Shown: piece after piece, positions 1 through 10,625 of the stretch
Layout of the letters: every line of letters begins with the position of its first letter
Numbering within the stretch: the first letter of the stretch is position 1
The notes under the pieces: model-generated
What the model saw: the letters and a program-made list of their open reading frames with translations, nothing else
What the model was told of the DNA's origin: nothing
Databases searched by the model: none
Assembly: GCA_025464695.1 (NCBI GenBank)
Contig: JAODNQ010000166.1
Coordinates: 1-14,330 of the forward strand
Reading direction: 5' to 3'
DNA length: 14,330 bases
Origin: Frankiales bacterium
GTDB lineage: Bacteria > Actinomycetota > Actinomycetes > Mycobacteriales > SCTD01
Made by a program: the position numbers and the translations under genes

Positions 1-3000
1 CGTGCTGACCGTGGTGCTGTTGCCGGCCTTGTCGACCGCGGTCCCCTTGACGCTCTGACCCATGCCGTCGGCGTCGACGACGACCGGGGCGGGGCAGGAG
101 GCGATCCCTGAGGTGGCGTCGGCGCAGTCGAAGGTGACGGTGACCGGGCCGGTGTAGATGCCGTTGCTGCCGACCGTGCCGTGCAGGCTCGGCTCGACCG
201 TCGGCCCGGCCTGGTCGATCTTGACCGGCGCGGCGAGGGTGGTGGCGGAGTTGCCGGCCACGTCGGAGCTGGAGCCAGCGACGCTCTTGCTGGCGGTGTC
301 GGTGCTCAGCTCGACGTCGTCGGTGCACGACTTGACCCCCGACAGCGCGTCCTCGCAGGCGAAGTGCACGGTGACCGGCTTGGTGTACCACTCGTTCGTG
401 CCGGTCGGCTTGGACGTCGCCGCCCCGCTGATGGTCGGCGCGGTCAGGTCGATGTTGACCTGCCCGGTGGTGGTGTTGCCGGTGTTGCCGGCGCGGTCGC
501 TGACGGCGCCGGGGAAGACCTGGCCGGCGCCCTCGGTGTTCACCACTGTGCCCTGCGTGCAGGAGGCAACGCCGGAGCCGGGCAGGGTGTCGCGGCAGGT
601 GAAGCCGACGCTGACCGGCGCGTTGTGCCAGTTGGCGGCGTTGCCCGGCTCGACCAGCGCGCTGATCGTCGGGTCGATCCGGTCGAGCTTGACCAGGACG
701 GCCGCGTTGGCGCTGTTGCCGGCGGTGTCGACCGCGGTGCCGTTGATGTCGGTGCCGACGGTGTCGGTGTCGACGGTGACCGGGTGCGTGCACGAGGCGA
801 GGGTGGAGCCGCCGGTGTCAGCGCAGTCGAACGTGACCGTCACTGGGGTGCGGTTCCATCCGGCCGCGTTCGCCTCCGGGTCGCGGGTGCCGCTGATTGT
901 CGGCACGGTCTTGTCGATCTTGACGGTGGCCGAGCGGGTGGTCTCGACGTTGCCGGCCTTGTCCACGCTGGAGAACGCCACCGTGTGGACGCCCTCCCCT
1001 GCGACGGCGATCTTCGTTCCGTGCTGCGTCGCCGCGCCATCGAGGGTGTACGTGGTGTCGGCGACGCCGGAGAGCGCGTCAGCCGGGTCAAGGGTCAGCG
1101 TGATGTCGTCCTTGAGCCAGCTGGTCGGAGCCTCGAGCGCGGTGGCCGGGGCGGTCCGGTCGATGCGGACCGGCTCGCTGGTGGCCCGGGTGTTGTTGCC
1201 GGCGACGTCGGTGGCGTCGGCCTGGGCGACGAGACCAGGTCCCTCGCCCGTGATCGTCGAGCTGGCCGGGTTGGTGACGCCGCTGATGGCGTCGGTGGCC
1301 GTCCAGTCGACGGTGACGTCGTTGCGGTACCAGCCGTTGTCGTTGGGCTCGGTGGTGGCCGCACCGGTCAGGGTGGGCGCGGTGCCGTCAAGCAGGTAGG
1401 GACCGAAGGCCCGCTCGGTGGAGCGACCTGCGGCGTCGACCGCGGTGACGGTGAACGAGTGCTTGCCGTCGGTGGTGAGCTTCTCGATCGGCGGGCAGAT
1501 CACGTAGCCGGAACCGGCGGCGGTGTCGGTGCAGGAGAAGGCGATGTCGACCGGGCCGGTGTACCAGCCGGACGCACCCGGAGCCCGGGCGGGCAGGGCG
1601 GTGATCGTCGGGTCGACCAGGTCCAGGGCCAAGCCGCTGACGGTGGTGCTGGTGGTGTTGCCCGCCTTGTCGGTGACGGTGCCGAGGATCGGCTCCGCGA
1701 GGCCCTCGCTGTCGAGGGTCACGGTCTGCGGGCAGCTGGCGATACCGGACAGGTCGTCGTCGCAGGTGAACTCCACGGTGACCTTGCTGATGTAGTAGTT
1801 GCCGAACTTGGTGCCCTTGACGACGGCAGCGATCGCCGGGGGCGTCGTGTCGACGTTGATGGCGGCCAGGGAGGTGCTGGCGCGGTTGCCGGCGTTGTCC
1901 ACTGCCTCAGCGGTGACGGTCTGACCGGCGCCCTGGACCAGGGTGGTGGCCTCGGCGCACGCTGCGATGCCCGACAGTGCGTCGTCGCACACGGGCGTCG
2001 CAGTGACCTTGCTGTTGATCCATCCGGCGCTGTTGGCCTTGTCGCTGAGCGACAGGGCGACAGTCGGTGCGGCGCCGTCGAGCTTGACGCCCGACAGCGT
2101 GCGGGTGGTGGCGTTGCCAGCGGCGTCCGTGCTGTGCAGGACGACGTCGCCCGCTGCGGTGTCCTCGCTCAGGGTGCTCGAGGTGCAGGTGACCACGCCG
2201 GACTTCGGGGCCGGGTCGACGCAGGTGACCTCAGCGGTGACCGGTGCGCGGTACCAGCCGCCGTCGCCGGCGGGCGGCAAGGTGCCTTCGATGCTCGGCG
2301 CTGCGGTGTCCAGCGGGACGGTGAGCGCGGCCTGGGCGCTGTTGCCGGCGTTGTCGACCGCGTTGCCGACCTGGATGCTGGTGCCGTCGGTGGTGACGTC
2401 GATCGGGTCGGTGCACGTGGCGACACCGGAGACACCGCCGGCGACCCCGGTGTCGGTGCAGGTGAAGCTGACGCGGACGGCACGGCGGTACCAGCCGGAG
2501 GCGTTCGGGGTCGCGTCGGCAGCGGCGGTGATGCTCGGGGCGGTCGCGTCGACGGTGACGGTGACGCTGCGCTCGGTCTCGGCGTTCCCGGCGATGTCGG
2601 TGCTGGCATAGCGCAGGGTGTAGGTGCCGCTGCTGGCGAACGTGTAGCTGTTGCGCGCCGGCTGCAGGACGTCGTTGACGTACAGACGGCTGCTGGCGAC
2701 GCCGGACAAGCCGTCGTAGGCACTGAGCTGCACGGTGGCGCTCTTGACCCAGCCTTGCGGGGCGGTCAGCGTGGTGACCGGCGCGGTCCGGTCGATGGAC
2801 ACCGCCGGGGAGGTGCCGGTGCCCCGGTTGCCGAAGCGGTCTGTCGCGGACGCGGTAGCCGTCTGGTTACGACCTTCGCCGATCAGGACGCTGGGCGCGG
2901 GCAGGTTCTCGGGGGCGACACCGCTGCCGGTGTCGGTGACGGTCCAGTCGACGGTGACGTCACCGCGGTACCAGCCGCTGACGGCGTTGGTCCGGGCCTT

Positions 3001-4212
3001 GCCGGTCACCACCGGCACCTTGGTGTCGCGCACCACGATGGTGGTGGTGAAGTTGTTGCTGTTGCCGGCCGCATCGGTCGCGGTGCAGGTCACTGGCGTG
3101 CTGCCGAAGGCGAAGGCGGTGCCGGGGTTCTGCGAGCAGTTGACCGCCAGAGGGCCGTCGACGATGTCGCTGGCGGTCGGCTTGACGTAGCTGACGGTCG
3201 CGCCGGAGGTGCTGGTCGCCTCGAACGTCTGGGTCGCCGAGCCGGTGATGTTCGGCTTGACGTCGTCGAAGCGCGTGTACGTGGCGACGGCGGTGCCGGT
3301 GCCGCCGGTCGGGTCGTTGTAGGTGCACGTCGCGGTCGTCGGGCCGACCGGCTTGGTCGCGCCCGCGATAACGGCGGAGAAGGTGTTGGTGGAGCCGCCG
3401 AACGGCGTCGCGCTGCAGCGTGGAGCGGCGGCGGTGTAGCTGACGCTGTCACCGTTGCTGATGCCGGTGACTTTGACGTCGGGGGTCGCGCCGAGCAGCG
3501 TCCAGGTGTTCGACCCCGGCATCATGACCTGGGCGCCGGACGCACCGTCGCAGCAGCCCTCCGCGCCGAACAGGGTCAGCGTGTGCGCGCCGGCGCTGAA
3601 CGTGCGGGTGATGTCGAAGTAGGAGACACCGGGCGTGCCGCTGAAGTTGGGGTCGTACATGTCGAACGGGTTGTTGGTCGCGTCGACGCCGTCGACGAGC
3701 ATCCCGCCGCCGAAGCCGTTGTCCGGGGCGATCCGCATCCGCCAGCTGGCGTTGTCCGCGGAGTTGATCGGGATGTCGATGCGGAACGCGTAGTTGTCCT
3801 GGCGCCCGCCGGGGCAGAACGTGCGGTTGCTCTGCCCGTTCAGGGTGCGGGCGTTGGTGTTCTTGCAGACACCGGGGCTGGTCGCGCCGCTGTTGAAGGC
3901 GCTCCGAGCGGCGTTGAGACCGTAGGTGGTCAGAGGAGAGATCACGCGGCTCTCCCACGTGGTCGGGAAGATCCGGTTGCCCGTTGCGGGGACGTCCGCG
4001 GATGCCGGAGCGGCGCTCAGGCTCAGGACGGGCAGCAGCGCGGCGACAACGGCCAGGACGAGCAGCACGAGCCGCCCTCGCGCCCCCCCATTAGCTGACG
4101 AAGACGGGGGGCGGACGGCCGCGGCGGCCGAAGCGGTGGGAGACAAGGCGTTCCTCGAAAGCACGGCGGCAGTGTGGATTCGCCCCTCGCTCACCCTGGC
4201 ACCGGCGACCAT
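1..4212 (-). CDS. Large secreted Ig-like/HYR repeat surface protein (3' end beyond window)
   Basis: The frame is open without a stop from position 4212 to the left edge, about 1,404 codons, so the C-terminus is missing. From the ATG at 4212 the N-terminus is long; a charged stretch (GGARGR) precedes the hydrophobic segment LVLLVLAVVAALLPVLSLSA and a likely signal-peptidase site after APASA near residue 72. GTG codons at 4194 and 4164 are alternative starts; none has a strong ribosome site. Residues about 73-235 form a domain with GAEGCCDG near residue 215-222. An Ig-like domain and a HYR domain (DGPLAVNCSQ ... GSTPVTCTATDAAGN, about residues 320-396) follow, then at least 13 Ig-like repeats, many with a Cys pair (FTCTD ... 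CT) and ending in D.AGN. Export is inferred from the signal; adhesion or a cell-surface role is inference from architecture. No anchor can be seen because the C-terminus is outside. Confidence 0.88.
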   Translation of the reverse strand, partial: MVAGARVSEGRIHTAAVLSRNALSPTASAAAAVRPPSSSANGGARGRLVLLVLAVVAALLPVLSLSAAPASADVPATGNRIFPTTWESRVISPLTTYGLNAARSAFNSGATSPGVCKNTNARTLNGQSNRTFCPGGRQDNYAFRIDIPINSADNASWRMRIAPDNGFGGGMLVDGVDATNNPFDMYDPNFSGTPGVSYFDITRTFSAGAHTLTLFGAEGCCDGASGAQVMMPGSNTWTLLGATPDVKVTGISNGDSVSYTAAAPRCSATPFGGSTNTFSAVIAGATKPVGPTTATCTYNDPTGGTGTAVATYTRFDDVKPNITGSATQTFEATSTSGATVSYVKPTASDIVDGPLAVNCSQNPGTAFAFGSTPVTCTATDAAGNSNNFTTTIVVRDTKVPVVTGKARTNAVSGWYRGDVTVDWTVTDTGSGVAPENLPAPSVLIGEGRNQTATASATDRFGNRGTGTSPAVSIDRTAPVTTLTAPQGWVKSATVQLSAYDGLSGVASSRLYVNDVLQPARNSYTFASSGTYTLRYASTDIAGNAETERSVTVTVDATAPSITAAADATPNASGWYRRAVRVSFTCTDTGVAGGVSGVATCTDPIDVTTDGTSIQVGNAVDNAGNSAQAALTVPLDTAAPSIEGTLPPAGDGGWYRAPVTAEVTCVDPAPKSGVVTCTSSTLSEDTAAGDVVLHSTDAAGNATTRTLSGVKLDGAAPTVALSLSDKANSAGWINSKVTATPVCDDALSGIAACAEATTLVQGAGQTVTAEAVDNAGNRASTSLAAINVDTTPPAIAAVVKGTKFGNYYISKVTVEFTCDDDLSGIASCPQTVTLDSEGLAEPILGTVTDKAGNTTSTTVSGLALDLVDPTITALPARAPGASGWYTGPVDIAFSCTDTAAGSGYVICPPIEKLTTDGKHSFTVTAVDAAGRSTERAFGPYLLDGTAPTLTGAATTEPNDNGWYRNDVTVDWTATDAISGVTNPASSTITGEGPGLVAQADATDVAGNNTRATSEPVRIDRTAPATALEAPTSWLKDDITLTLDPADALSGVADTTYTLDGAATQHGTKIAVAGEGVHTVAFSSVDKAGNVETTRSATVKIDKTVPTISGTRDPEANAAGWNRTPVTVTFDCADTGGSTLASCTHPVTVDTDTVGTDINGTAVDTAGNSANAAVLVKLDRIDPTISALVEPGNAANWHNAPVSVGFTCRDTLPGSGVASCTQGTVVNTEGAGQVFPGAVSDRAGNTGNTTTGQVNIDLTAPTISGAATSKPTGTNEWYTKPVTVHFACEDALSGVKSCTDDVELSTDTASKSVAGSSSDVAGNSATTLAAPVKIDQAGPTVEPSLHGTVGSNGIYTGPVTVTFDCADATSGIASCPAPVVVDADGMGQSVKGTAVDKAGNSTTVST
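130..2990 (-). repeat. Array of 13 Ig-like domain repeats within the surface protein gene
   Basis: A GW-type motif (GWY, GWV, GWI, NYY, SWL, GWN, NWH, EWY, GIY) recurs at roughly 2970, 2748, 2490, 2253, 2018, 1793, 1560, 1329, 1122, 855, 636, 390 and 150. Spacing is 207-267 bp, about 78 residues per domain. Most repeats follow the pattern GWY..PVTV.F.C.D..SG...C ... GQ.V.G.A.D.AGN. Repeats 1 and 8 lack the Cys pair and have VDWT.TD. Repeats 2 and 9 resemble OmpL47-type beta-barrel domains (TYTLRYASTDIAGN; HTVAFSSVDKAGN). Confidence 0.85.
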
Positions 4213-4696
4213 GTCTCGGCCAGGGGTCAATGCGTCCTACCGCTGAGCCCGCGACGCTAGGAGGCCCAGAGCACATGGTATGTAGTCCCTTTTGGCCGGA
4301 CGGGCCTGCCCATCTGGCGAACCTGCCGGGCAGCCAGTGCCACGCTTTTGACTCTTGAGGACCAGCGCACGGGTGAAGCACGTCCGCAGCAGCCGCCGGA
4401 CCCGCACTGGTCCACTGCGTCGTATCCCGAGCCGTCGCCGCGACGACCGAGCGCTCGGCGGCATGAGCGGATGTTCGTCGCCTGAGAGCGAAGCGCTGAC
4501 CTACTTGCTGTAGAGCGTGGCGTAGAGGCGGGGCCGTTCAAGACGATCGAGCGCCAGCGCCCGATGCTGTCGCTCGCGGGAACGACCTCGAGAGAGGAAC
4601 GCGACCTGGAGTTCTAAGCCGCTATTCTATTGTGCTCCAGGTGACTCGTGCCTCGTTGACGCCAGGGCCGCCACAGCCTGCCTAGCGAATTGCAGA
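4213..4696. other. Gene-poor stretch between the surface protein and the broken nuclease gene
   Basis: I see no supportable gene here. Minus-strand open frames between about 4237 and 4541 look like by-products of high GC, although the end of one (ending TTYHVLWAS at about 4257) reads less like noise than the rest and might be a remnant. The stretch should contain the promoter of the surface protein gene and possibly the left limit of the island. It holds the left copy of the imperfect direct repeat (4452-4479). Confidence 0.5.
4452..4479. repeat. Imperfect direct repeat, left copy
   Basis: Matches 8902-8929 in the same orientation at 24 of 28 positions. The best-conserved core, GGCATGAGCGGATGTTCGTC here, differs at two positions from the right copy. 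Similarity may resume after a gap (AGCGCTGACCT at 4492-4502 against AGCGCAGACCT at 8951-8961). Function is unknown. Confidence 0.6.
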
Positions 4697-5599: not shown

Positions 5600-5932
5600 C
5601 TAGTTCGCGAACAACTCCGCGGGTACGTCCGAGAAACCCGATTGGTAGCCGGCGTAACCGGCATGACCGGGGTAGCCGGGGTAGCCGGGGTAGCCGGGGT
5701 ACCCCGGGTAGCCCGGATACCCGGGGTAACCGCGGTAGGGCTGACTAGTCCGTCGCAGGAGCCGGTTGCCTACGACCGAGCCCAAGTACTTGCCCTCCTT
5801 GGTCACGGCGTCATCGTCATCCCACGGAAACCAGCCAATCCATCGCGCCGCCTTGTTGTAGAGGTAGTGGTCATCTGGCGACGTGCGAAACGCAATCCAC
5901 GTGCCGCTCGTATCGAAGAGATAGACAGTCAT
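5600..5932 (-). CDS. 4-fold beta flower-like small protein with Gly-Tyr-Pro repeat tail
   Basis: 110 aa from ATG at 5932. The N-terminal 65 or so residues carry short beta-rich units rich in aromatics and glycine: VYLFDTSGTWIAF, YLYNKAARWIGWFPW, GKYLGSVVGNRLLRR. From memory this is the pattern of the protein family called 4-fold beta flower. The C-terminal third is a run of YPG triplets (seven YPG, flanked by YRG, HAG, YAG), likely extended and disordered. No signal peptide or membrane segment is seen. The start lies 46 bp after the ATPase stop, on the same strand. TTACCGTGGCCGG just before the ATG includes a TACCGT hexamer six bases upstream, so a separate leaderless transcript is possible. 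Biochemical role is unknown; the location next to a Rad50-like ATPase is the only functional clue. Confidence 0.75.
   Translation of the reverse strand: MTVYLFDTSGTWIAFRTSPDDHYLYNKAARWIGWFPWDDDDAVTKEGKYLGSVVGNRLLRRTSQPYRGYPGYPGYPGYPGYPGYPGYPGHAGYAGYQSGFSDVPAELFAN
5645..5737 (-). repeat. 9-bp tandem repeat coding Tyr-Pro-Gly
   Basis: About ten nine-base units (consensus TACCCCGGC on the minus strand) encode YRG, seven YPG, HAG and YAG. The central units are nearly identical at DNA level, so copy number could change by slippage without breaking the frame. Confidence 0.85.
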
Positions 5933-5978: not shown

Positions 5979-8444
5979 TCATTTCTCTACGAGGTTGAGG
6001 TTGAGCTTGGCGCAGCGGCATCGCAGGGTCGTCGGGTTCGGGTAGCCCTCGGTGACGATCGGGTGGTTGCAGATGTCGCACTCGAAGACGGCCAGAAGAG
6101 CTCGGGTGGCGGCGACGGTTTCGGCGAACTCGCCGGGGCTGACCTCAAGCGTGGGGTTGAAATGCGTCATAACGTTGATCGCCCACTCCTCGACGCTGTA
6201 CCCCTTCCTCGCCGCCTTCCACGCCGCGTCAAGGTCCTCGACGCGCGCTGTCTGCTCGGTGTTGCCCCACTTGGCCGCCGACTTCTTCGCCTTTTCGAGC
6301 AGTCGTGTGTACCGGGCGCCGACAGCCGTCAGGAGGGGGCCGAGTTCATAGCGGTTGTCCTCGCGGAACACGACCAGAGCGCCCAGGTCATGAGCGTGGG
6401 TACGCATCCGGTTCTCGAGCAGCTGCCGCAGCATCGGCGCGGCTGTGTTCACTGAGCCTTTGGCGAGTTCCGTGTCGATGCGTGCGAACACGTCGCCCTT
6501 CTCGGCACGGATTGGCCCGGTGTCGACGTGCCAGTCCTGGAACTCGATGACGTTGTCGCGCTTGACCACTCCGAGCTTCTCGATCGTCTTCGCCCACGGC
6601 TTCTCGTGAGTGGTGACGATGAACTGGACCCGCGGGAACTTGTCCAGGAGCAGCTCGCAGATCTTGCGACGATGGGCGATGTCGATGCTAGTGATGACGT
6701 CGTCGAGGACGACGAAACTAAGCTCCTCGCCGAGCATGTGGTCGAGTAGCGCCAGGTACAGGGCCAAGCCCATCCCGTCCTGGTGGCCCTCGGAGTGATA
6801 TGCCCCCGGTGGAAACAATCCGAGGTCGTAGAAGCCGACGGCGAGGTCGAGCTTTCCTGCGGCCGGGGCGAGCTCGGCCCGGAACGTGTCCTCGTCACCG
6901 GCGTTCATTTGCTGGTAGTGGGCGGAGAACTGCGTCTCGATGCTGCGATATAGCTCGTCGAGCGCGGAATCCATCGCTGCGCAGTACTTCTCGTACAGCG
7001 CGTCGGCGATCCTCGCGTGCTCGTCAGCGTCGCGCTGGGTTGCCTTTGCGTGCGCGAGGCGTGTCCAGCGCTCCTGCGCGTGGGCGAGCCAGCCCGACGC
7101 CGCCTGCAGCTCCGACTGGTCGGGCAGGGCGTCGGCTGCCGCTGCGAGTGCTTCGACGGCAGTGCTCGTCTGAGTCGTCGTGCTGGTCAAGGTGGCGGCG
7201 GCCTCGCCGTGGGTACGGGCGTCTGCGATGGTGGCGGCGCTGTCCTGGGCGAGTCGCTGACGTGTCTGTGTCAGTTCTGCGGCCCAAGTCCGCATCGTCT
7301 CGGTGTGGGCTGTGCCAACCAGGAGTGTCGCAGCGCTTTCGGCCGCTGTGAGGATCTTGCGCTGGAGCGTTTCTAGCTGGACGCCCAGTTGGCTGGATGC
7401 CGTCGAGATCCTGCTCTGGACCGCTCCGGCGTGCGCCGATGCGGCGATCTTGCCGGTGAGGTGCGTGCGGAGGGCTTCTTCGCTGTCCCAGTCGAGGTCA
7501 CAGACCGGACAACGACTGCCGCTGACCTGCCCAAGAGCAGCGACGAGCAGGGTCCGCTGTGCGAGGGCGTGCTGTGCAGCGGTGAGGTCGCCAAGTTCAG
7601 CGACGGCGGCATTGAGCTCGCCGACGAGTTCGGCGGTGCGGGCAGTGACGCTGATGGCGGTGGCTTGCAGCTCGGACGCGATCCGGACAGCGCCGACGCG
7701 GTTGATGCCTGAGGTCTCGCGGCTGACTCCGTCGTCGAGCGCGATCCAGTCCCGGCCGCTCGTCAGGTTCGCCTCAGTGAGCACAGGCAGGTTCAGCAGC
7801 ATTCGGCGCTTGTTCGCCGCGGCGGTCACGTCGGCGCGGGCGGTCGTCCCGCCGCCGAGGAGCGCGGCGAGGTCCGGGGCGGCCGCTGCGACGCGCCCGT
7901 CGGCGGAGTTCTTCTCCTTGGTCAGCTGGGTCTTGGCGGTCCGGAGCGTCTGCCGGAGGCTCTCGAGGCTTTCGAGCTTGAGCAGAGTCTGGACGGCTTG
8001 GGAGCGTTCGCCGGGCTTGGCGAGGATGAACTTGAGGATATCCCGTCTGGTCAGGATGAGCTCGGTGTGCTCGCCGGCCTCGTTGACGGCTGCGCGGAAC
8101 TCCTCGGTGTCGGGAGTGAGCTCGTACTCGTTCGGCCGGCGAACGGTCCTGCTCAGCGTTGCTTCGGTTCCTCCCTGAGTGCGGAACCGCAGGCTGACGC
8201 GTGCAGCGTCAGGGTTGCTGCGCTGCAGGACGTGCGGCCCGTGCACCTTGACGCTCACGCCGGCGGTGCCTTCTCCGGTGAGGCGCGCCACGCTGCCGGT
8301 GAGGGCGAAGTCGATCGCGTCAACGACGCCACTTTTGCCGGTGCCATTGGGTCCGTGCACGAGGAGCGATTCGCCAGCCATTTGAATAATCAGGTGCCGG
8401 ATGCCGCGGAACTCGATGATCTCGAGCTCGACGAGTCGGATCAC
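5979..8444 (-). CDS. Rad50/SMC-like AAA ATPase with CxxC hook and C-terminal zinc-ribbon motif
   Basis: 821 aa from a GTG at 8444, preceded by GGGAGG six bases upstream. N-terminal RecF/Rad50-type start (LVELEIIEFRGI) and Walker A GPNGTGKS at residues 31-38. Predicted helical, Ala/Gln/Thr-rich segments (about 150-300 and 320-480) flank a hook motif CPVC at 312-315, as in Rad50. The C-terminal half of the ATPase has signature SEGHQDG (551-557), Walker B FVVLDD (577-582), D-loop SID and switch His in TTHEKPW (His 613). Walker B ends in Asp-Asp rather than Asp-Glu. An extra C-terminal domain (about 650-821) ends with C789xxC792 and C809xC811, probably a zinc ribbon. Known relatives bind DNA ends or act in repair and phage defence. 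The coupled small gene, island location and nearby nuclease-like remnant favour defence, by inference. It could equally be a repair protein carried by the element. It does not show features that let me assign a named system. Confidence 0.87.
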   Translation of the reverse strand: MIRLVELEIIEFRGIRHLIIQMAGESLLVHGPNGTGKSGVVDAIDFALTGSVARLTGEGTAGVSVKVHGPHVLQRSNPDAARVSLRFRTQGGTEATLSRTVRRPNEYELTPDTEEFRAAVNEAGEHTELILTRRDILKFILAKPGERSQAVQTLLKLESLESLRQTLRTAKTQLTKEKNSADGRVAAAAPDLAALLGGGTTARADVTAAANKRRMLLNLPVLTEANLTSGRDWIALDDGVSRETSGINRVGAVRIASELQATAISVTARTAELVGELNAAVAELGDLTAAQHALAQRTLLVAALGQVSGSRCPVCDLDWDSEEALRTHLTGKIAASAHAGAVQSRISTASSQLGVQLETLQRKILTAAESAATLLVGTAHTETMRTWAAELTQTRQRLAQDSAATIADARTHGEAAATLTSTTTQTSTAVEALAAAADALPDQSELQAASGWLAHAQERWTRLAHAKATQRDADEHARIADALYEKYCAAMDSALDELYRSIETQFSAHYQQMNAGDEDTFRAELAPAAGKLDLAVGFYDLGLFPPGAYHSEGHQDGMGLALYLALLDHMLGEELSFVVLDDVITSIDIAHRRKICELLLDKFPRVQFIVTTHEKPWAKTIEKLGVVKRDNVIEFQDWHVDTGPIRAEKGDVFARIDTELAKGSVNTAAPMLRQLLENRMRTHAHDLGALVVFREDNRYELGPLLTAVGARYTRLLEKAKKSAAKWGNTEQTARVEDLDAAWKAARKGYSVEEWAINVMTHFNPTLEVSPGEFAETVAATRALLAVFECDICNHPIVTEGYPNPTTLRCRCAKLNLNLVEK

Positions 8445-8698
8445 GCGGCACCTCCCGGCCGTGGGTCCGGCTTCGTGGCGTGCTTGCGGACGAGATCGAC
8501 GACCTGCTGGGTGTCCGCAGCGGCGCCGCTTCGCGTTAGCAGGTCCCGGAGCGCTGTGGCGACCGGTTCTGGGATGGACTCGTCGTTATGGACGGAGGTC
8601 AGGAAGTTCTCTATGACGGTAATGCGGACAGTGCTCAAATCGCGGCCTTCGGGTGCTCGGGAGCCTTCGCTCCCATCGCTGCGGGTCGCGACGTCCAA
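8441..8698 (-). CDS. Small unrecognised protein coupled to the Rad50-like ATPase
   Basis: 85 aa if started at the TTG at 8698. Its TGA (8443-8441) overlaps the ATPase GTG as GTGA, which implies translational coupling and a joint function. The N-terminal 20 residues are Ser/Gly/Arg-rich and may not be translated: an in-frame TTG (LSTVRITVIENF) would give about 65 aa. The rest looks helical (IPEPVATALRDLL, ADTQQVVDLVRK) and ends PDPRPGGAA. The frame is open upstream of 8698 for only about nine more codons (RVVTKRENL) after a TAA, with no standard start in them, so the N-terminus is uncertain. I do not recognise the family; it may be an accessory or adaptor subunit of the ATPase. Confidence 0.65.
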   Translation of the reverse strand: MDVATRSDGSEGSRAPEGRDLSTVRITVIENFLTSVHNDESIPEPVATALRDLLTRSGAAADTQQVVDLVRKHATKPDPRPGGAA

Positions 8699-8929: not shown

Positions 8930-9170
8930 AGCCGCTTGACGAGCTTCCGAGCGCAGACCTGACGGTGCTCGGCGGTCAGCCGTGACCGGCGGCTCGGGCC
9001 GGAACATCCGAGGCGAAACGCCCACCTCGCCTCCGCCTGAGGGCCGCGACTAGTTCTCCACAACTTCGCGTCCCGGCCGTCGCAGGCGTCAAGAACGCCG
9101 TCATGGTCGAGCAGCACATGCCCACCGGGCGGGGGTGCTCGTGCCCGCCCAGGGCTACTCACCGAGTGCT

Positions 9171-9176
9171 GGAGGA
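9171..9176 (+). promoter_or_regulatory. Ribosome binding site fixing the integrase start
   Basis: GGAGGA six bases before the ATG at 9183. The frame is open further upstream to a GTG at 9135, but that start has no comparable site. Confidence 0.8.
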
Positions 9177-9182
9177 CGAGTC

Positions 9183-10463
9183 ATGGCCGACCACAAGCGG
9201 CGCGGGTACGGCGACGGCGGCGTGAGCCCCTACGACACGGCCGCCGGCGAGCGCTTCAGCATCGTCTTCCGGGCCTTCGATCCCAAGCGCGGGGAGTCGC
9301 GTCAGTTCCGGGAGCGCGGCTTCAAGACGCGCCGGGAGGCCCAGACGGCGCTGCGGCAGCGCGTGGCCGAGGCCGAAGCCGGCCAGCACGTCGCCCCCGA
9401 CGCCGAGACCCTCGCCGACTGGGTCGAGCGCTGGCTCGTCGCGGAGAAGACACAGGTCCGGCCCAGCACCTGGAGCTCCTACTCCCGGAACCTCCAGCTC
9501 CACGTCGTGCCGGCGCTCGCCTCGAAGCGCCTGCAGCACCTGCGGCCGTCATACCTCTCCGGCCTCTACGCCCGGCTGCTCGAGGGCGGACGAGCCGACC
9601 ACGCGTCCGGCCGAGGGCTGTCGCCCCGCACCGTCCGGTACATCCACACCATCTTGCGCAAGTGCCTGCAGGGCGCCGTCGACGAGGAGGGGCTGCTGCA
9701 GACCAATCCGGCCGCGAAGGCCAAGCCACCCAAGGCGTCCGCCAGCGGCGACAAGCACACGAAGATCTCGTACTGGACCGGCCCGCAGGTCGGGCAGTTC
9801 CTCGAGCGGACCGCGTACCAGCGGCACCACGCCGCCTGGCTGCTGCTCGCGACCACCGGCATGCGGCGCGGGGAGGCCCTGGGCCTAGCCTGGGCCGACC
9901 TGGACCTGGAGGTCGGCCGGCTCTCCGTGCGCCGGACCCTGGTCGACCTGCTGGCCGGTGCAGTCCCCGTCTGGTCGGACCCCAAGACCGCAAAATGGCG
10001 GCGCACAGTCGACCTCGATGAACGCACCGTTGCCGTTCTCCGGTCACATCGGGCCAGCCAGGCCAGAGAGCGCCTCTCGACGGGTCCGAGCTACGAGCAG
10101 CACGACCTCGTCCCCGCGATGCCGGACGGCAGGCCCGTCCACCCCGAGCGGTCTAGCCGCGACACCGAGACCGTCGCCCGCTCCGACCTGCCCCGCATCC
10201 GGCCGCACGACCTGCGCCACACCTGGGCCGTGCTGGCCCTCCAGGCCGGTGTGCACCCCAAGGTCGTCCAGGAGCGACTGGGCCACTCCGGCATCAGCTT
10301 CACGCTCGACACCTACAGCCACGTCCTGCCCGCCAGGCAGACCAACGCAGCAGCCCAGGTCGCGGCGCTGATCTTCGGCTCGACACCGAGCCGACGCACC
10401 CGCACCGACCCGGTGACAGTCCGCTCGCATACGTCCTTGTTGGCTTGGAAGCAGCGGGTCTGA
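9183..10463 (+). CDS. Tyrosine recombinase (site-specific integrase)
   Basis: 426 aa from the ATG at 9183. Residues about 24-66 form an arm-type DNA-binding region (FDPKRGESRQFRERGFKTRR). A SAM-like core-binding domain covers about 75-185 (LADWVERWL, RPSTWSSYSRNL, SPRTVRYIHTILRK, NPA). The catalytic domain shows TTGMRRGEALGL (Arg228), the beta-hairpin Lys region PKTAKWRRT (Lys268/Lys271), HDLRHT (His342, Arg345), LGHSG (His368) and the nucleophile in DTYSHV (Tyr378). All expected catalytic residues are present, so it looks functional. It would cut and rejoin DNA at attP/attB to integrate or excise the element. Its 3' end faces the tRNA-Leu 3' end 76 bp away, the usual arrangement for actinobacterial elements. 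No excisionase gene is seen next to it. Confidence 0.96.
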   Translation: MADHKRRGYGDGGVSPYDTAAGERFSIVFRAFDPKRGESRQFRERGFKTRREAQTALRQRVAEAEAGQHVAPDAETLADWVERWLVAEKTQVRPSTWSSYSRNLQLHVVPALASKRLQHLRPSYLSGLYARLLEGGRADHASGRGLSPRTVRYIHTILRKCLQGAVDEEGLLQTNPAAKAKPPKASASGDKHTKISYWTGPQVGQFLERTAYQRHHAAWLLLATTGMRRGEALGLAWADLDLEVGRLSVRRTLVDLLAGAVPVWSDPKTAKWRRTVDLDERTVAVLRSHRASQARERLSTGPSYEQHDLVPAMPDGRPVHPERSSRDTETVARSDLPRIRPHDLRHTWAVLALQAGVHPKVVQERLGHSGISFTLDTYSHVLPARQTNAAAQVAALIFGSTPSRRTRTDPVTVRSHTSLLAWKQRV

Positions 10464-10523: not shown

Positions 10524-10539
10524 AGGCCCTTTGATCTTG

Positions 10540-10625
10540 TGTCCGAGGGGGGACTTGAACCCCCATTCCCCGTAAAGGGAACTAGCACCTCAAGCTAGCG
10601 CGTCTGCCAATTCCGCCACCCGGAC
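10540..10625 (-). tRNA. tRNA-Leu (anticodon GAG)
   Basis: The reverse strand folds as a class II tRNA of 86 nt including the discriminator A. Acceptor GTCCGGG pairs with CTCGGAC with one G-U. D-arm region is TGGCGGAATTGGCAGACGCG. The anticodon stem CTAGC/GCTAG encloses loop TTGAGGT with anticodon GAG (10589-10591), reading CUC and CUU leucine codons. The long variable arm (TTCCC ... GGGGAA) is typical of tRNA-Leu, and the T-arm is GGGGGTTCAAGTCCCCC. The 3' CCA is not encoded. It appears intact despite the adjacent integrase, as expected when an element restores the 3' end on insertion. Confidence 0.97.

Follow-up and report, generated by a model that had tools for sequence, protein, structure and literature searches.

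What is the function of a Rad50-like ATPase that is encoded together with a very small protein beside an integrase gene? The question is raised by a pair of overlapping genes in a stretch of 14,330 nucleotides from a Frankiales bacterium (contig JAODNQ010000166.1), the whole of which is called the window here. The two genes form one mobile genetic unit, for which a function in genetic conflict is likely. The larger gene (5979..8444; coordinates in the window refer to the minus strand unless indicated otherwise) is intact and encodes, from a GTG start, an 821-residue Rad50/SMC-like ATP-binding cassette (ABC) ATPase with a C-terminal extension. The protein has a Rad50-type head, with structural matches spanning residues 1-649, and a short coiled coil carrying a zinc-hook motif; of 7990 candidates scored, 438 were homologues at E 0.001. 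In an alignment of 97 sequences (A3), residues G31, P32, N33, G34, G36, K37 and S38 of the Walker A motif GPNGTGKS (8331..8354) are invariant, and so are C312, P313 and C315 of the apical CPVC hook placed between the two coiled-coil arms (7500..7511), as well as D581 and D582 of the Walker B motif VVLDD (within 6699..6716), which has Asp at the position of the catalytic Glu. The ABC signature SEGHQDG (6774..6794) is invariant from S551 to D556 and nearly so at G557. The Walker A, CPVC, SEGHQDG and LDD motifs and the terminal CxxC/CxC motif had all been listed in a preliminary description of this DNA, and this anatomy was confirmed.

The small gene lies directly upstream of the ATPase gene, in such a way that the GTG of the latter overlaps the TGA stop of the former by 4 bp in the sequence GTGA (8441..8444), an overlap already pointed out in that description and probably reflecting translational coupling. 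The small open reading frame (ORF) proved to be real and conserved, but its extension to position 8698 represents only the longest possible start, giving 85 residues. Since the 65-residue homologues P0122, P0124 and P0125 begin with MSTVR, which corresponds to the TTG at 8638, the gene is probably 8441..8638, with a TTG start and 65 rather than 85 residues; GAAGG is found upstream of this TTG. The model of the protein (predicted local distance difference test score of 83.8) has helices at residues 3-18, 24-34 and 43-54 and no strand, so that a three-helix protein is predicted. It had been called unrecognised, and it remained so in searches of Pfam, PADLOC and NCBIfam, which returned no match at E 0.1, and no convincing family or fold match was found. 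Among 53 aligned copies the length ranges from 56 to 77 residues, and 44 have a net negative charge (-1 in the window). Purifying selection acts on the small gene: in 10 gene pairs, nonsynonymous divergence was lower than synonymous divergence in all seven for which the latter could be estimated, and third codon positions were the most variable in nine, with one tie.

In order to know how constant the association is, 81 loci were compared, corresponding to the best 80 of 195 relatives on genome contigs plus one viral contig; several of them are near-identical, and 52 are flanked by 5 kb or more on either side. An ORF with the exact 4-bp overlap into the ATPase gene is present in 71 of them. 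When the frames of the other ten were read, eight were found to keep the small gene, partly masked or at a different spacing, among them L078, where it extends past the ATPase start. Of the remaining two, L013 has it split between frames, and in L012 the small gene and the 5' end of the ATPase gene have both been lost. One of the 71 loci with the overlap, L043, has an in-frame stop in the small gene. On plasmids, 13 records were opened of 24 with a match, and the small gene was present in all 13, with the 4-bp overlap in 12 and an 11-bp overlap in one. A blind search with a profile of the small protein in 372 genomes (the sample of one alphaproteobacterial class) produced five matches, of which four directly adjoin the ATPase gene, in all four genomes that were ATPase-positive in the companion search; the fifth is marginal (E 0.0098) and lies within a 524-residue frame. 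The distances between ATPases and those between their partners are correlated (Spearman 0.68 for 47 pairs kept after two were dropped, 0 of 2000 permutations), a value uncorrected for shared ancestry. The pairing, for whose survey the preliminary description had called, is close to obligate, and the ATPase and its partner are found, selected and transferred together as one genetic unit. As a separate observation, only one of 52 viral-contig matches is a full-length copy (L081, 672-3325), and it has an intact small ORF of 62 residues.

The unit is rare, being present in around 1% of the sampled genomes. In the class to which Blastococcus belongs, 5 of 394 genomes were found to carry the ATPase family, and in that of Jannaschia 4 of 385; each count includes the genome at the centre of the search. 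In one genus it was detected in 1 of 23 genomes, again the search-centre genome. The pair is present from actinobacteria to haloarchaea. Copies in Paracoccus halophilus and Rhizobium subbaraonis are 99.0% identical across 4.8 kb, those of Gordonia and Tessaracoccus or Kocuria are 93-94% identical over 4.5-4.9 kb, and a 99.9% match between Gordonia and an uncultured Propionibacterium bin may be due to mis-binning. In more diverged pairs (L025/L039, L007/L011 and L004/L045) the main alignable block consists of the two genes plus up to about 120 bases. The unit moves between orders and is sporadic and mobile, not housekeeping. Several copies sit on contigs longer than 1 megabase. Four Rhodobacterales loci (L031-L034) have cassettes that are 99% identical, and around 95% identical when 2-kb flanks are included, with a frame for a strawberry-notch-type helicase upstream, as on a Phaeobacter plasmid; they look like a recently spread plasmid backbone.

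The commonest neighbours at the 81 loci are serine recombinases (10 loci), tyrosine integrases (7) and TrwC-type relaxases (5). Neither of the findings that the preliminary description had named as refuting its reading, homologues mainly as solitary housekeeping repair genes or a lack of conserved pairing, was made: the ATPase is sporadic and mobile, with recombinase, integrase and relaxase neighbours, and the small gene is consistently paired with it. No third conserved gene was detected among the neighbour clusters. The associated nuclease that had been envisaged does not recur either among the identified clusters, and no recurrent Mre11/SbcD gene was found within up to 8 kb.

As no third gene is conserved, the effector, if any, is probably the C-terminal domain of the ATPase itself. 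This domain (residues 650-821, 5982..6497) is composed of a helical part, with predicted helices at 652-785, and a zinc ribbon with predicted strands at 797-817. R673-x3-E677 (6414..6428) is located on its first long helix, N757-x3-H761-x-N763 (6156..6176) precedes the last helix, and the ribbon is formed by C789-x2-C792 and C809-x-C811 (6012..6080). In an alignment of 26 diverse C-terminal domains (A6), R673, E677, N757 and H761 are invariant in all 26, as are the four cysteines of the ribbon. The invariance of these polar residues suggests an active site, and by their sequence the R-x3-E...H residues recall those of the RloC-type anticodon nucleases, so that this domain may act as a ribonuclease. 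RloC is described as a Rad50-like ABC ATPase that has a zinc hook and ends in an anticodon nuclease, whose triad R-x3-E-x36-52-H consists of residues each of which was found to be necessary (available part of PMC2610378), and it is reported to respond to DNA breaks (available part of PMC3874168). The preliminary description had seen no effector intact enough to name a system, which was probably too pessimistic because the invariant residues of the C-terminal domain recall RloC.

Two AAA_13 proteins, L157 and L158, were fetched for comparison. The L158 group comprises 115 of 120 listed relatives (120 listed of 287 found), all relatives of a single query with at least 58% identity as listed; six of the 120 are named "wobble nucleotide-excising tRNase". 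In these 115 proteins the motif R-x3-E...N-x3-H has its R in 115, its E in 115, its N in 114 and its H in 115, and a full-length profile alignment between the two families (probability 77%, E 2e-5) aligned the hooks and both R-x3-E motifs. As regards a HEPN fold, the C-terminal domain is helical in the model of the whole protein, and a single-sequence comparison with DUF4145 was weak.

Several observations weigh against a ribonuclease of the RloC type. The full-length alignment to the L158 group stops before N-x3-H, and the C-terminal domain alone gave no profile match to RloC (probability 0.2-0.3%). No family was found for this domain in Pfam. The triad residues match those of RloC and PrrC, but their spacing does not, with 83 residues between E and H here versus 36-52 in RloC. 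In addition, L157 has R-x3-E and lacks N-x3-H, so this second motif is not general to RloC-like proteins, and the Arg of the classical HEPN motif Rx4-6H is absent from the window protein, which reads W754-A-I-N757-x3-H761. Finally, the ATPases of two haloarchaeal loci, L144 (8822-10968) and L145 (8822-10959), with 654-657 residues, lack the C-terminal domain; both loci retain a 58-residue partner with the 4-bp overlap. As the domain is absent there and the small gene present, the dyad may be the core of the unit and the tail a removable effector.

The surroundings of the unit were inspected for genes of known defence function. In the archaeon Halorhabdus tiamatea (L139, 8805-11469), the pair sits between the annotated BREX-5 genes pglX and pglZ, an insert that the available part of a 2026 BREX survey does not mention. 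Among the plasmid loci, one is near abortive-infection and AbiE genes and HsdS, another near an N-6 DNA methylase and a patatin, and others near DUF262, near DarT, TIR and RES genes, and near a restriction endonuclease. Annotated defence genes were counted in 6 of 13 focal stretches (L135, L137, L139, L141, L142 and L143) versus 0 of 13 controls, which were distant stretches of the same 13 plasmids (p 0.015); this count was made by keyword once the focal regions had been viewed, with pure toxin-antitoxin genes excluded on both sides. The association is sensitive to one decision, in such a way that counting control L178, with a PD-(D/E)XK nuclease and a helicase, gives 1 of 13 controls and p 0.07. 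Also contrary to a defence context, no defence gene is annotated at 7 of the 13 plasmid loci: three of them lie among conjugation genes, in stretches with mainly conjugation, plasmid or metabolic genes, three more show nothing clear, and another has TerB-like and helicase genes that were not counted.

We compared the unit with the known systems that it resembles. With RloC and PrrC it shares a Rad50-like ABC head with a CxxC zinc hook on the coiled coil and a helical domain at the C-terminus in which R-x3-E and H are conserved; like the L158 group it has N-x3-H. RloC and PrrC genes sometimes adjoin restriction-modification or Pgl systems (available part of PMC3710099). It differs from them in its obligate small overlapping partner gene and in its extra C-terminal zinc ribbon. 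The window ATPase did not match Pfam AAA_13 at E 0.1, and weak matches were obtained for 15 of the 24 members of alignment A1, the best with an E value of 0.00017.

The preliminary description had pointed to the plan of Lamassu-like and ABC-three-component systems. As in those systems, there is a Rad50-like ATPase with a core of around 650 residues, with a zinc hook in many cases, and, immediately upstream of its gene, that of a smaller protein, also with a 4-bp overlap at the LmuB locus L164. Membership is not supported, since no separate LmuA-type effector gene is present and the partner has about 60 residues (around 55-77), whereas at three LmuB loci the ORFs upstream, regarded as LmuC because of where they lie, have 182-293. 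In addition, the motif is LDD here versus the usual E-to-Q Walker B described in the available part of PMC10586767. LmuB is indeed the best PADLOC model for the ATPase (4.7e-22, 77 bits), a score far below the 338-427 bits that the same model gives for the five best of eight actinobacterial matches, and a profile alignment with LmuB, built from three LmuB sequences only, covered residues 2-53.

The DndD-DndE and CxC-DndE dyads of the Dnd and Pbe systems are also formed by a coiled-coil ABC ATPase and a co-evolving small protein in defence loci (available part of PMC10853773). However, DndE consists of two ribbon-helix-helix units, whereas three helices and no strand are predicted for the partner here; the ATPase scores 16 bits against the DndD model, whose cut-off is 246, and no modification genes are conserved near the pair. 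Rad50-Mre11 and SbcCD have the head fold and hook motif in common with the unit, but here the adjacent gene encodes a small protein instead of a nuclease subunit, the coiled coil is short, an extra C-terminal domain is present and the distribution is sporadic. By the features tested, the unit is a member of none of these systems; it is like RloC in its proposed working and resembles Lamassu and the Dnd/Pbe dyads. We found no description of it in the literature searched, a search outside which the main ABC-ATPase classification paper falls.

The explanation that we favour, and that we put forward tentatively, is a mobile two-gene conflict system, probably directed against phages or plasmids, in which an RloC-like sensor and ribonuclease has a dedicated small subunit. 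In such a system the dimeric Rad50-like head would sense abnormal DNA, in the form of ends or stalled invader DNA, while the co-translated three-helix partner would be an obligate subunit, bound to the ATPase at its head or neck, that checks or licenses it. An ATP-driven rearrangement would then free the C-terminal R-x3-E...N-x3-H domain, which would act as an RloC-like ribonuclease, with the zinc ribbon serving for RNA binding, and halt translation in the infected cell. The working would be that of RloC, with the dedicated subunit as a guard. We hold ribonuclease action with moderate confidence as the best single mechanism. The interpretation given in the preliminary description is partly supported, and a role in defence is still what we infer.

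Other readings were weighed against this one. The pair could be a conflict system acting on DNA, binding or looping the invader in the style of Lamassu or Wadjet, with the C-terminal helical and zinc part as a platform for binding DNA or the partner and not as a ribonuclease. The Rad50-type head, LmuB as the top PADLOC model, and the DndDE and CxC-DndE dyads as precedent all agree with this reading, and the two haloarchaeal forms without C-terminal domain allow the core dyad to be the functional unit; on the other hand, the lack of a recurrent nuclease gene among the identified neighbour clusters and the invariance of the C-terminal polar residues speak against it, and we regard it as rather unlikely.

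A toxin-antitoxin-like addiction module that stabilises plasmids and islands, in which the small upstream protein is the antitoxin and the ATPase the toxin, with defence as a secondary effect, seems improbable to us. The small gene comes first and overlaps, its product is mostly acidic, and the unit is present on plasmids and has integrases and relaxases as neighbours, in agreement with such a module; yet an 800-residue zinc-hook ATPase is unusual for addiction, and the existence of split ATPase copies (G308 and G480) and the in-frame stop in the small gene of L043, beside its ATPase, weigh against it because a tight module would punish such losses. Hardly probable, finally, is an accessory unit for DNA repair or DNA protection of mobile elements, for instance for end handling in conjugation, with no relation to defence. 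It would account for the Gene Ontology term double-strand break repair in plasmid annotation, for the three loci among type IV secretion system or relaxase genes and for one locus near ImuA and error-prone polymerase genes, but not for the lack of a recurrent SbcD/Mre11 partner, the insertion within BREX, the proximity to Abi, AbiE, restriction-modification, TIR and DarT genes, or the copies on contigs over a megabase.

Around the cassette, the window carries the integrase and tRNA genes that had been noticed before: a tyrosine integrase of the island (9135..10463, plus strand; Phage_integrase, 3.3e-19), outside the cassette, and a tRNA-Leu (gag) gene detected by ARAGORN (10539..10625, minus strand), a possible attachment gene; no second attachment site was found within the window. 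The G+C content is 62-66% across the cassette and just to its left, versus 72-74% in the integrase and the right flank. A small protein is encoded at 5600-5932, 46 bp downstream of the ATPase, with a below-cut-off match to a 4-fold beta-flower followed by collagen-like GYP repeats, and it has no counterpart among the fetched loci. Positions 1-4230 are occupied by a single open frame of at least 1410 codons that extends beyond the end of the window; its product is repetitive and looks secreted, with repeat copies around 231-246 nt apart, and a 1305-residue ORF on the plus strand is its antisense.

In the plasmid records the ATPase is labelled "AAA family ATPase" or "ATP-binding protein" and its partner "hypothetical protein", and because of such generic annotations the unit goes unrecognised. 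A broader proposal, possible though doubtful, is that it represents a distinct class of Rad50-like sensor nucleases common to bacteria and haloarchaea. The guard role that a restriction enzyme has for PrrC would here fall to a tiny obligate subunit, and the core dyad would carry or lose a C-terminal ribonuclease-like effector, sensor and effector being modular. If the unit is a defence system, it would have a new architecture, with a tiny dedicated subunit controlling a Rad50-like sensor, and would allow a direct test of how such sensors separate foreign DNA from the breaks of the cell's own.

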